DNA of 64,000 bases. It comes from Pseudomonadota bacterium (lineage in GTDB: Bacteria > Pseudomonadota > Alphaproteobacteria > Micropepsales > Micropepsaceae). Positions 32,469 through 36,175 of the stretch are shown here, piece by piece; the first letter of the stretch is position 1, and every line of letters begins with the position of its first letter. The stretch lies in NCBI GenBank assembly GCA_021804785.1, contig JAJZGY010000001.1, positions 62,001 to 126,000 on the forward strand, written 5' to 3'. Made by a program: the position numbers and the translations under genes. The notes below the pieces were generated by a model, which did no database searches, was not told the DNA's origin, and was given only the letters and a program-made list of their open reading frames with translations.

Positions 32469-32601
32469 GGAGGGCTCTCGGCTCAGCTTCGTTAGACCTT
32501 GTGAGGCCGGTCCTTGGGGCCGGTGCAATGCCCATTTGTGCACCTTTTGCTGGCTTTGGCATCAAGAAATTTCGTATAAGCTATATTATGAGAACTAATA
32601 T

Positions 32602-32627
32602 AGCGATTGTATACTTGACACATGCAA
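32602..32627 (+). repeat. left terminal inverted repeat of IS1595-family element
   Basis: AGCGATTGTATACTTGACACATGCAA, pairs with 34503-34528. Confidence 0.88.
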
Positions 32628-32666
32628 TGGCGGTGCTTACTTAAGCTTCATAAGGAGTTAACCGCC

Positions 32667-33620
32667 ATGGTTGCCAAACTGCCAAAGCGATTTACCGACG
32701 AAGCCGCTGCCCGCGCGCACCTTGAAGCGCTCCAGTGGCCAGATGGTCCGGTTTGTCCGCATTGTGGCACCTTGGACCGCGCGTCGCGCATTGCTGGCGG
32801 TCGTGCTGGCCTCTTGTTCTGCAATGCCTGCCGCAAGCAATTCTCGGTCACGGTCGGCACCGTCTTTGAGGGCTCCAAAGTTCCGCTCAACATATGGCTT
32901 TATGCCACGCACCTGCTTTGCAGTTCCAAGAAAGGCATTTCCAGCCAGCAACTTAGCCGTATGCTTGGCGTCACCTATAAGACCGCTTGGTTTATGGCTC
33001 ATCGTATCCGCGAAGCCATGTCGCCTGTTGGGTCCGATGCTGGCCCGCTTGGGGGCGAAGGAAAGGTCGTTGAAGCCGACGAAACCTATATTGGCAAGAA
33101 AGACGGCAAGCGTGCCAAAACTGGCGGATATGGCCATAAGCGCGCCGTCCTAAGTCTTGTTGAGCGCGGCGGCAAAATACGTTCCTTCAAGATCGGAGCG
33201 CCTACCCGCGACGAAATCGGCCCCGCTATTTGCCAGAACGTGGACCGCACCAGCGTCCTGCATACCGACGGCGCCCAAGTTTATCGTGGCGTGTTTTCGG
33301 TCGCGGCTCACGAGGCCGTAGACCATTCCAAGGAATATGTCCGCCAGTCAGACATTCCAAACCTGACGGGCGCCGAGTGGCCGAAGGTCCATACAAACAC
33401 CGCAGAAGGCTTCTTTTCGGTCTTTAAGCGCGGCATGGTCGGGACCTACCAGCACTGCGGCGAGCAGCATTTGCAGCGCTATCTGGCGGAATTTGACTTC
33501 CGCATGAACCACCGCATCAAGCTCGGCTATTCCGACGACATGCGTACCGACAAGGCGCTGGAAGGCATCAAGGGCAAGCGTTTGACCTATCGGCGGACTA
33601 ACGAAGCCGCAGTCGGTTAG
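32667..33620 (+). CDS. IS1595-family (ISXO2-like) transposase
   Basis: N-terminal zinc ribbon CPHCGTLDRASR...CNACRKQFSVTVGTVFEGSKVPL, EADETYIGKK, HTDGAQVY, HTNTAEGFFSVFKRGMVGTYQH. Confidence 0.96.
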   Translation: MVAKLPKRFTDEAAARAHLEALQWPDGPVCPHCGTLDRASRIAGGRAGLLFCNACRKQFSVTVGTVFEGSKVPLNIWLYATHLLCSSKKGISSQQLSRMLGVTYKTAWFMAHRIREAMSPVGSDAGPLGGEGKVVEADETYIGKKDGKRAKTGGYGHKRAVLSLVERGGKIRSFKIGAPTRDEIGPAICQNVDRTSVLHTDGAQVYRGVFSVAAHEAVDHSKEYVRQSDIPNLTGAEWPKVHTNTAEGFFSVFKRGMVGTYQHCGEQHLQRYLAEFDFRMNHRIKLGYSDDMRTDKALEGIKGKRLTYRRTNEAAVG

Positions 33621-33670
33621 ACAGCAGGCGCTGGCCTTTATCCGCTGGCGCCGTGCCCGAGGCTACGAAG

Positions 33671-33838
33671 TTACTCCTTTTCGCCGTCCGTTTTGGGGGC
33701 GTCATGGCTGGAAGAAGTAGCCGAATCATCCCGACTCGGCTTCTTCTTACCCTCAGCTTTGTGAGGCGTCGGTGGTGTTTTGAGTAGCCGCCGAATTACT
33801 TCGTCCTCTTGGGAATTTTGATCAGGTTCGTCGGCCAT
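33671..33838 (-). CDS. 55-aa hydrophilic micro-protein inside the IS (not in the supplied ORF track)
   Basis: Own translation of the minus strand: MADEPDQNSQEDEVIRRLLKTPPTPHKAEGKKKPSRDDSATSSSHDAPKTDGEKE*. ATG at 33838, stop at 33671-33673. Confidence 0.55.
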   Translation of the reverse strand: MADEPDQNSQEDEVIRRLLKTPPTPHKAEGKKKPSRDDSATSSSHDAPKTDGEKE

Positions 33839-34487
33839 GGTAGTGCTCCAACATCGAGAAAAACTCAGAATGTCTCGGCGGTGGGGTCCGAGACAACACG
33901 ATATGATTCAGCGCTATTCCAAGGAGGTAGGAGAAGTAGCCGTAGCATGGAATAGCTTCCACTTTCTTCTGCAATGCATTTTCTGCGCCCTTGTGGAACG
34001 AGAAAACATGGCTCCAGGGGTCGCCATTTGGAATGCTATCAAAGCTGATGCTTTGCAGCGAGACCTTCTTGTAGCCCTTGCAAAAACGCGGCTTACATCC
34101 AATAGCCGTCTTTTTAAAAACATAATCTGGGTAACAGCCCAAGCCACTGAACTGGCGAAATTCCGCAACGACGCTATTCACATGCCCGTCGAAACTCCTG
34201 AAGTGTCCAGAGACGTCGTTCCGTGGCACATAGCTCGCCCAGCTTCCATGGAGCGCGTCACAAAACACGGCTACAAGAAACTGTTTCGAACTCTAGTAGG
34301 CGACCTCAACCAATTGTACGTTTACTCTGTGTATCTGAATGAAGTGCTTGCTGGTCGCGGCAATGAGCTAGCATCGCTACGAAGACCTCTACTGCGATGT
34401 TCTCAGCTATTTCAGGAGAAATCCCGTAAAAGCGGTCCTCGTCGGCAGAAACCAAGGCGCCGGCGCCAGCCGAACGCATCTCCTTAG
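33837..34487 (+). CDS. IS passenger gene: HEPN-like helical protein (RNxxxH motif)
   Basis: Lies between transposase and IRR. VAVAWNSFHFLLQCIFCALVE helix and LAKFRNDAIHMPV (R-N-x-x-x-H). Start may be ATG 33837 or 33870. Confidence 0.7.
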   Translation: MVVLQHREKLRMSRRWGPRQHDMIQRYSKEVGEVAVAWNSFHFLLQCIFCALVERENMAPGVAIWNAIKADALQRDLLVALAKTRLTSNSRLFKNIIWVTAQATELAKFRNDAIHMPVETPEVSRDVVPWHIARPASMERVTKHGYKKLFRTLVGDLNQLYVYSVYLNEVLAGRGNELASLRRPLLRCSQLFQEKSRKSGPRRQKPRRRRQPNASP

Positions 34488-34502
34488 TTATTTTGACCGA
34501 AT

Positions 34503-34528
34503 CTGCATTTCTCATGTACATAATCGCC
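34503..34528 (-). repeat. right terminal inverted repeat of IS1595-family element
   Basis: Reverse complement GGCGATTATGTACATGAGAAATGCAG pairs with IRL. Confidence 0.88.
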
Positions 34529-34615
34529 ACTAATATATGGGTGCGGAAGGTTGCCAGTCACTGCGCACCTCCCGTAGCTTCGTCGCTCGTAGCTCATCAC
34601 TCGGACTTAACCCGT

Positions 34616-36175
34616 ATGAAATCCGCCTTTGCCGCCGCATTTGTCTTGCTGCTCACACTGTCAACGCGTGCGATGGCCGCAGACGCAACCGGGCCATTCA
34701 AACCGACGTCCGTAAAAAGTACAGGGTCTGTAGTTATCGGTGGGCACAGGATCGATTATCAGGCGGTAGCGGGCACGCTGGTGGTCCATGCCAAGAGATG
34801 GAGCCATACCCCGGCTACAAAGACTGACGATAAGGCCGGGACCTCCGACGCCGAGGCCTCAATGTTCTACGTCGCCTATTTTCGGAGAGACACAAATTTA
34901 GTTCACCGGCCTATCACATTCATCTTCAACGGCGGCCCTGGCTCATCGAGTGTATGGCTGCACATGGGTGCGTTTGGTCCTGTGCGCGTAGTCACTGCCG
35001 ACCACACGCACACTCCCGCCGCACCGTACACGGTTGTCAACAATGGCCAGAGCCTGCTTGATGCCTCAGATCTTGTGTTTATAGACGCACCAGGTACGGG
35101 GTATTCCCGCATAACCGGTAAGGATGCGGACAAGCAGTTTTACGGCGTCGATCAGGACATACGCGCCTTTGCGGAGTTCATTCGTGAATTTCTGAGCAGA
35201 TATAACCGTTGGAATTCGCCTAAGTTCCTGATCGGCGAGAGTTACGGAACAATGCGCGCCGCGGGCCTACCGTTGGCACTGGAACGCGAAGACATTGACC
35301 TCAACGGCGTTGGCCTTCTGTCGTGCATTCTTGATTGGGACCTGATGCCGGATAATCCGGAACTTAATCCGTCAGTTGATCTTCCTTATGAAGTAGCCCT
35401 CCCCAGCTATGCTGCAACGGCATGGTATCACCACAAATTATCTCTAAAATACAAATCCCTGAATCAGCTCATGAAGAGCGTCGAGCATTTCGCCATGAAT
35501 GACTATGCATTGGCGCTACAAGAGGGTAACAGTCTATCATCGCAGCATCGACTTGCTATTGCCCAACGCCTGTCAGCCTATACTGGATTGTCAGTCTCCT
35601 ATCTGCTGCGTGCAAATCTGCGCATACCGTATGGAGCATTCCAAAAGGCGCTGCTTGAGAATCAGGACCTTACTACAGGAACTCTCGATACGCGTTTCAC
35701 TGGACCAACGATGGATCCGCTATCCAAACTTGCGGAATATGACCCGCAAAGTGCCGCTATAGGCTCGGCGTATGTCTCATCCTTCAATCGATATGCGAGA
35801 ACGACGCTGCATTACAGAACATCAGAAACCTATAGGCCAGAAATCCCGATTTACAGCAGCTGGGATTACAAACATAAGCCACCAGGTGCCAGCCATCCTC
35901 TGATTATGCTCCCAAACGTGTTACCGGATCTGGCCGCCGCCATGAAGCGCAACCCAGATCTTAAAATTTTTGTTAACGGCGGATATTTTGATATATCAAC
36001 GCCCTTCTACGAAGGTTGGTTTGAAACACATCATCTGCAAATTCCGCCGTCTTTGCAGAAAAACATCACATACCGGTATTATCGAACCGGACACATGATC
36101 TATGTTCATGTGCCAGCTCTCAAGGAGCTTCATCGCAGTATGGCTGCGTTCATCAAAAGCGCGTCCAAACACTGA
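34616..36175 (+). CDS. S10 family serine carboxypeptidase-like protein, exported
   Basis: Signal peptide MKSAFAAAFVLLLTLSTRAMA; FNGGPGSSSVWLHMGAFGP, GESYGTMRAAGL, NGGYFDISTPF, YRTGHMIYVH. Confidence 0.93.
   Translation: MKSAFAAAFVLLLTLSTRAMAADATGPFKPTSVKSTGSVVIGGHRIDYQAVAGTLVVHAKRWSHTPATKTDDKAGTSDAEASMFYVAYFRRDTNLVHRPITFIFNGGPGSSSVWLHMGAFGPVRVVTADHTHTPAAPYTVVNNGQSLLDASDLVFIDAPGTGYSRITGKDADKQFYGVDQDIRAFAEFIREFLSRYNRWNSPKFLIGESYGTMRAAGLPLALEREDIDLNGVGLLSCILDWDLMPDNPELNPSVDLPYEVALPSYAATAWYHHKLSLKYKSLNQLMKSVEHFAMNDYALALQEGNSLSSQHRLAIAQRLSAYTGLSVSYLLRANLRIPYGAFQKALLENQDLTTGTLDTRFTGPTMDPLSKLAEYDPQSAAIGSAYVSSFNRYARTTLHYRTSETYRPEIPIYSSWDYKHKPPGASHPLIMLPNVLPDLAAAMKRNPDLKIFVNGGYFDISTPFYEGWFETHHLQIPPSLQKNITYRYYRTGHMIYVHVPALKELHRSMAAFIKSASKH

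Follow-up and report, generated by a model that had tools for sequence, protein, structure and literature searches.

A complete IS1595-family element with a conserved companion micro-ORF, two cargo slots and a probable HEPN-like passenger

The window, i.e. the whole stretch of 64,000 nucleotides analysed here, holds a complete IS1595-family element (32602-34528; 1927 bp) with the gene order transposase (plus strand), 55-codon micro-ORF (minus strand) and 216-aa passenger (plus strand). With moderate confidence, we interpret it as a modular transposon with a fixed companion, encoded by the micro-ORF, and two swappable cargo slots, one of which usually carries a HEPN-like gene, the companion most likely serving the transposition or expression module. 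The fixed parts of such a transposon would be the inverted repeats, the transposase and the small companion protein. Instead of being a dedicated antitoxin, the companion may act as a partner of the transposase, or regulate how transposase and cargo are expressed. The first-pass annotation had already described an IS1595 element carrying HEPN-like cargo and a divergent micro-ORF; our analysis supports this and adds the exact ends and the 8-bp duplication.

The ends of the element were located by searching for 8-bp duplications flanked by inverted repeats. Two identical copies of the target-site duplication, ACTAATAT, lie at 32594-32601 on the left and at 34529-34536 on the right. The left terminal inverted repeat AGCGATTGTATACTTGACACATGCAA (32602-32627, plus strand) is identical to the right end at 16/22 positions, and the right repeat, GGCGATTATGTACATGAGAAATGCAG when read from the right end inwards, occupies 34503-34528 on the minus strand. 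The 317-aa transposase (32667-33620, plus strand) matches DDE_Tnp_IS1595 (PF12762, 7.9e-31) and Zn_ribbon_IS1595 (PF12760, 1.7e-12), both above cut-off; AAGGAG is found upstream of the start at 32667, and a longer frame begins at 32622. The element thus combines the features that define the IS1595 family, a DDE transposase with N-terminal zinc ribbon, inverted repeats and an 8-bp duplication, and it is single-copy in its own genome. Most of the relatives have terminal inverted repeats of the same class (GGCGATTATATACTTGAC), and perfect 8-bp duplications were found in 63 of the related elements examined.

The companion micro-ORF (33671-33838, minus strand; 55 aa) encodes the core DEVIRRLLKTPPTPHK and a charged tail, with GGAG upstream of its ATG. 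For comparison, 80 relative loci were gathered with the transposase alone as query, the companion not being used, and their frames were searched with the 55-aa peptide and then with an iterated profile. A homologue with the core DEVLRRMLKTPPKPHK was present in 76 of the 80 loci, a sample biased to the clade of the window and drawn mostly from Alphaproteobacteria, on the minus strand between transposase and right end. The core follows the consensus DEVL(R/K)R(M/L)LKTPPKPHK, and in an alignment of 77 copies the R is kept in 70, the next L in 71, the T in 70 and the two prolines in 68 and 72. The association of an LLxTPPxPH-like motif with IS1595 transposases, which had been mentioned in the first-pass annotation, is right. 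In 16 of 17 independent pairs pN was lower than pS, and close pairs had a median dN/dS of 0.41; by this substitution pattern the companion core is under purifying selection, while the tail was not conserved in the 19 pairs compared. The conserved frame, its homologues and the excess of synonymous change argue for a real gene, as had been proposed, and the same 16/17 pairs reject antisense noise. Whole genomes provided a second sample of about 22 elements whose transposase is closely related; 12 of these have the same companion, and several others encode different small proteins. The micro-ORF of the window had no match in Pfam or NCBIfam, nor did the companions tested against NCBIfam match any family there.

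Two cargo slots flank the companion gene: slot A lies between it and the transposase, and slot B reaches from it to the right end. When all elements were compared as DNA, both slots proved to be replaced wholesale between related elements. In the pairs L018/L022, L061/L065, L080/L083 and L034/L052, little is shared beyond the transposase, a stretch of about 75 nt in the companion core and, in most cases, the right end; slot B alone differs in L034/L045, L036/L050 and L036/L056, and slot A alone in L052/L058 and L040/L043. The window element shares 83-84% DNA identity over the transposase with L008 and L009, while the HEPN proteins of all three are unrelated. A rightward passenger, defined as an ORF on the plus strand with 130 aa or more that starts at or near the micro-ORF start, with gene starts assigned mechanically, is present in 56 of 77 elements, and 21 elements retain the micro-ORF without a long rightward passenger. 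Other cargo, often resembling toxin-antitoxin or defence genes, matched an ImmA/IrrE-like (M78) peptidase, Abi_2, SocA/Panacea, DUF6932 and a trypsin-like domain, and a plasmid relative carries a PIN-domain gene. Elsewhere the companion gene closes an operon that runs leftward, or comes first upstream of leftward cargo. Slot B of L016, L021, L032, L080 and L086 holds a leftward pair of about 170-180 aa and 245-260 aa, one of them DUF1829-like, and in several of these elements the last frame extends a few bases over the micro-ORF start.

The passenger of the window (33837-34487, plus strand) occupies slot B and contains RNDAIH (34164-34181; residues 110-115), which fits the R(N/D/H)xxxH motif. 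This motif, noted at the outset in the window passenger, proved to be conserved among relatives: it is present in 46 of the 56 rightward passengers, mostly at residues 84-115, whereas 500 shuffles gave 2.8 on average and at most 9. The passengers are barely alignable, with 10-24% identity to that of the window. R110 and H115 occur in 46/46 aligned passengers; since this alignment was selected on the motif, their invariance adds nothing to the count of 46/56. When genomes, plasmids and phages were searched with the window passenger, the only relatives to emerge were distant ones, from five genomes of its family. Five distant relatives, found without use of the motif, all carry it (HRNDIAH, YRNIAAH, SRNNAIH, GRNNAVH and RRNDALH). 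A few passengers weakly match Pfam HEPN families, namely RiboL-PSP in three (best 8.8e-6) and DUF4145, Apea, LA2681 and Cthe_2314 in one each, and a few gave weak matches to the PADLOC models for Csx1 and CARF-HEPN. The best curated-profile relative, L056, reaches 26.2 bits and stays below the RiboL-PSP-HEPN cut-off of 28.4. The window passenger itself matched no Pfam HEPN family at any strength, and nothing in Pfam, PADLOC or NCBIfam.

AlphaFold predicts mainly helical structures both for the window passenger (mean pLDDT 76.8) and for the L056 passenger (mean pLDDT 90.6). R110 and H115 lie in helix 90-115 of the former, R91 and H96 in helix 71-96 of the latter, and in both models the motif is predicted at the C-terminal end of the helix preceding the loop to the last helices. 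In HEPN proteins the domain consists of helices only, and helix 3 ends with the motif (PMC3710099), so the position of the motif in the two models agrees with HEPN. Foldseek comparison of the same two models with the PDB gave no significant match and no HEPN structure, and a PDB sequence search with passenger profiles brought up designed helical bundles for the most part, besides ApeA matches that were very weak. On the question of a HEPN fold the outcome is mixed, with predicted topology and motif position in agreement and no HEPN structure retrieved by Foldseek. Taken with the marginal Pfam matches in relatives, motif and modelled motif position make the passenger probably HEPN-like. HEPN proteins with such a motif are metal-independent RNases with roles as toxins or in abortive infection (PMC3710099), and by analogy the slot-B gene of the window would encode a HEPN-type metal-independent ribonuclease serving as toxin or abortive-infection effector. 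A second class of slot-B passengers occurs in L025, L027, L045, L057, L082 and L084; it contains the motifs IHNLRSALDH and DKHR and falls in no Pfam family.

Since the companion core diverges at synonymous sites like the transposase, its type follows the transposase tree and it persists without a rightward passenger, it is inherited with the backbone of the element. The same 19 pairs gave a pS of 0.447 for the core and of 0.444 for the transposase, despite replacement of the cargo between the two. On the transposase tree, which includes only ten rows with a companion type other than A, companion type required 5 changes (shuffled mean 9.8, minimum 8), whereas cargo class, which is scattered over the tree, required 29 (32.1 on average in shuffles, 31 of 200 being as low). 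We also considered that the core is conserved as DNA, either as promoter or as recombination site. This is not supported, since the synonymous rate of the core is not reduced, which argues against constraint on it as DNA. From the pattern of inheritance, the companion most likely works with the transposition or expression module, a reading less certain than that of the slot-B gene as a HEPN-type ribonuclease.

The same pattern bears on the suggestion that a HEPN toxin and a charged micro-protein antitoxin form an addiction module that stabilises the transposon, which we regard as unlikely. Partners of type II toxin-antitoxin systems are co-inherited with the toxin and lie in one operon with it; here the companion goes with the transposase rather than with the cargo, and micro-ORF and passenger are divergent on opposite strands. 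The two genes adjoin, and the putative antitoxin is small and charged, but it is retained where HEPN genes are absent and next to unrelated cargo, and its core tracks the transposase in both synonymous divergence and type. HEPN proteins do act as toxins in known toxin-antitoxin systems (PMC3710099), toxin-antitoxin-like genes are found among the cargo of relatives, and toxin-antitoxin pairs are integral parts of Tn3-family transposons (PMC7157771); however, cognate antitoxins do not look like this, with a single conserved helix set against dozens of HEPN proteins that are unrelated to each other. A role of the companion as antitoxin is possible but not favoured, and it might neutralise several kinds of cargo. 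Among the options listed in the first-pass annotation, a transposition regulator is better placed than addiction, since the companion follows the transposase.

The ATGs of passenger (33837) and micro-ORF (33838) overlap within CCATGG, as had been pointed out before, so that the two divergent start codons share CATG (33836-33839). This arrangement recurs in relatives: 46 of the 56 elements with a rightward passenger, the window included, have the mechanically assigned passenger start exactly on the shared CATG, and the G completing CATG is present in 47/52 elements with a rightward passenger (ATG start) versus 8/17 without one. An in-frame ATG at 33870 is an alternative candidate start of the window passenger; because the overlap recurs, we favour 33837. 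Most passengers of the IHNLRSALDH/DKHR class also start on the same CATG. The overlap would put the initiation region of each gene inside the other gene, and therefore the 5' end of one mRNA should be complementary to that of the other, which, speculatively, could make the expression of companion and passenger mutually antagonistic.

Such an arrangement could mean that the companion serves above all to regulate the expression of cargo, the product of the leftward transcript or an antisense RNA restraining the divergent cargo until transposition or stress. We consider this improbable. The start overlap in 46 elements implies that transcript 5' ends must overlap, and Shine-Dalgarno-like motifs precede 28/47 micro-ORF starts and 24/47 passenger starts, as compared to 20% of random positions. 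Antisense control, however, cannot work where the companion ends a leftward operon or precedes leftward cargo, the companion core is without excess nucleotide constraint, and a promoter scan gave no convincing site near the overlap. It is hardly credible that the micro-ORF arose as an open frame by chance and that the HEPN motif is coincidental: the micro-ORF is short and without Pfam or NCBIfam match, but 76/80 loci, 16/17 pairs with pN<pS and a motif count of 46/56 versus 2.8 in shuffles contradict it.

Some IS1595-family members carry passenger genes. The window element resembles IS1595-family insertion sequences in transposase domains, terminal inverted repeats and 8-bp duplications; what it has beyond known IS1595 sequences is the companion micro-protein, conserved among relatives, a pair of cargo slots and the start codons that overlap in CATG. 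In the open-licence literature we found no description of these three features, nor of IS1595 with toxin-antitoxin genes, HEPN passengers or a small companion, and an earlier account elsewhere is possible. The passengers share with the HEPN superfamily (ApeA, RiboL-PSP-HEPN, DUF4145, Csx1 and integron-cassette HEPN; PMC3710099) the Rx4H motif with N/D/H after the R, and in the models its place at the terminus of the helix that leads into the last loop. They differ from it in that they fall below curated Pfam cut-offs, gave no PDB fold match with the two models and reside in slot B of an IS1595 element. HEPN genes have already been described as mobile-element passengers in integron cassettes (PMC3710099). 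The toxin-antitoxin pairs embedded in Tn3-family transposons likewise place toxin-type genes near transposition genes, and their survey includes one HEPN/MNT pair (PMC7157771). In contrast to these, the window element has a different transposase family and no MNT gene, and its constant small gene follows the transposase, not the toxin. In HEPN/MNT toxin-antitoxin systems (PMC7641770, PMC4621449), the presumed toxin is likewise a HEPN RNase-type protein. In the window, the gene next to the passenger encodes a short, charged protein and lies on the other strand; no nucleotidyltransferase (MNT) gene was found between 32602 and 34528.

More tentatively, and with somewhat less confidence than in the modular transposon as such, we propose that these IS1595 elements are two-component mobile platforms, in which a transposase and an obligatory companion with a helix and a basic tail would be combined with two slots for hyperdiverse HEPN-like ribonucleases and toxin or defence genes, slot B being joined via CATG, and in which other IS1595 clades would use sequence-distinct analogues. 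The companion looks like a fixed part of the transposon that has so far gone unrecognised, and not just like the antidote to one toxin. If so, a large and mostly alphaproteobacterial transposon group has a third fixed gene hidden by the usual length cut-offs, and its elements are compact natural collectors of RNase-type toxin or defence genes, in which a single companion family stands opposite dozens of HEPN-like proteins unrelated to each other. It would then be testable whether transposons carry such genes for persistence, for phage defence of the host or for control of their own movement, and the elements would offer a handle on how cargo slots are exchanged with neighbouring parts kept in place.

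The four loci without a homologue of the micro-ORF have other small charged proteins, a variant downstream on the plus strand in L044 and a protein of the RFIxTARELGxDE type in L067, L077 and L078. Analogous small charged proteins of differing sequence were seen in other IS1595 elements, namely in L119, L126, L130, L131, L135, L067, L077 and L078, in L149, L151 and L154, and in L155; the types are RFIxTARELGxDE (plus strand), ALKEGKLEEFIREHE and FFPDAWKRFEAAVD, and the start of the FFPDAWKRFEAAVD-type companion also overlaps a HEPN-like start in CATG. The flanks of some loci contain a second companion gene (L021 6822-6950, L050 6047-6214, L058 6459-6587 and L060 2014-2163), and L118/L122 are two transposases head to head on one contig; because of these, the elements may cluster or nest.

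A search of Rfam gave no match. The target duplications of the window and the 63 relatives are strongly A+T-rich (20% G+C versus 60% in the loci) and roughly palindromic, with A first and T last, and often lie next to A or T runs: a run of four A or T was found at most 14 nt from the left end in 26 elements, versus 5.6% of random positions per 14 nt. Intergenic or terminator sites are possible targets. The right side of the window element is adjoined by a serine carboxypeptidase gene (Peptidase_S10, 34617-36175) with a likely signal peptide; its mechanical ORF start at 34493 falls within the element, and 34617 is the likely start.
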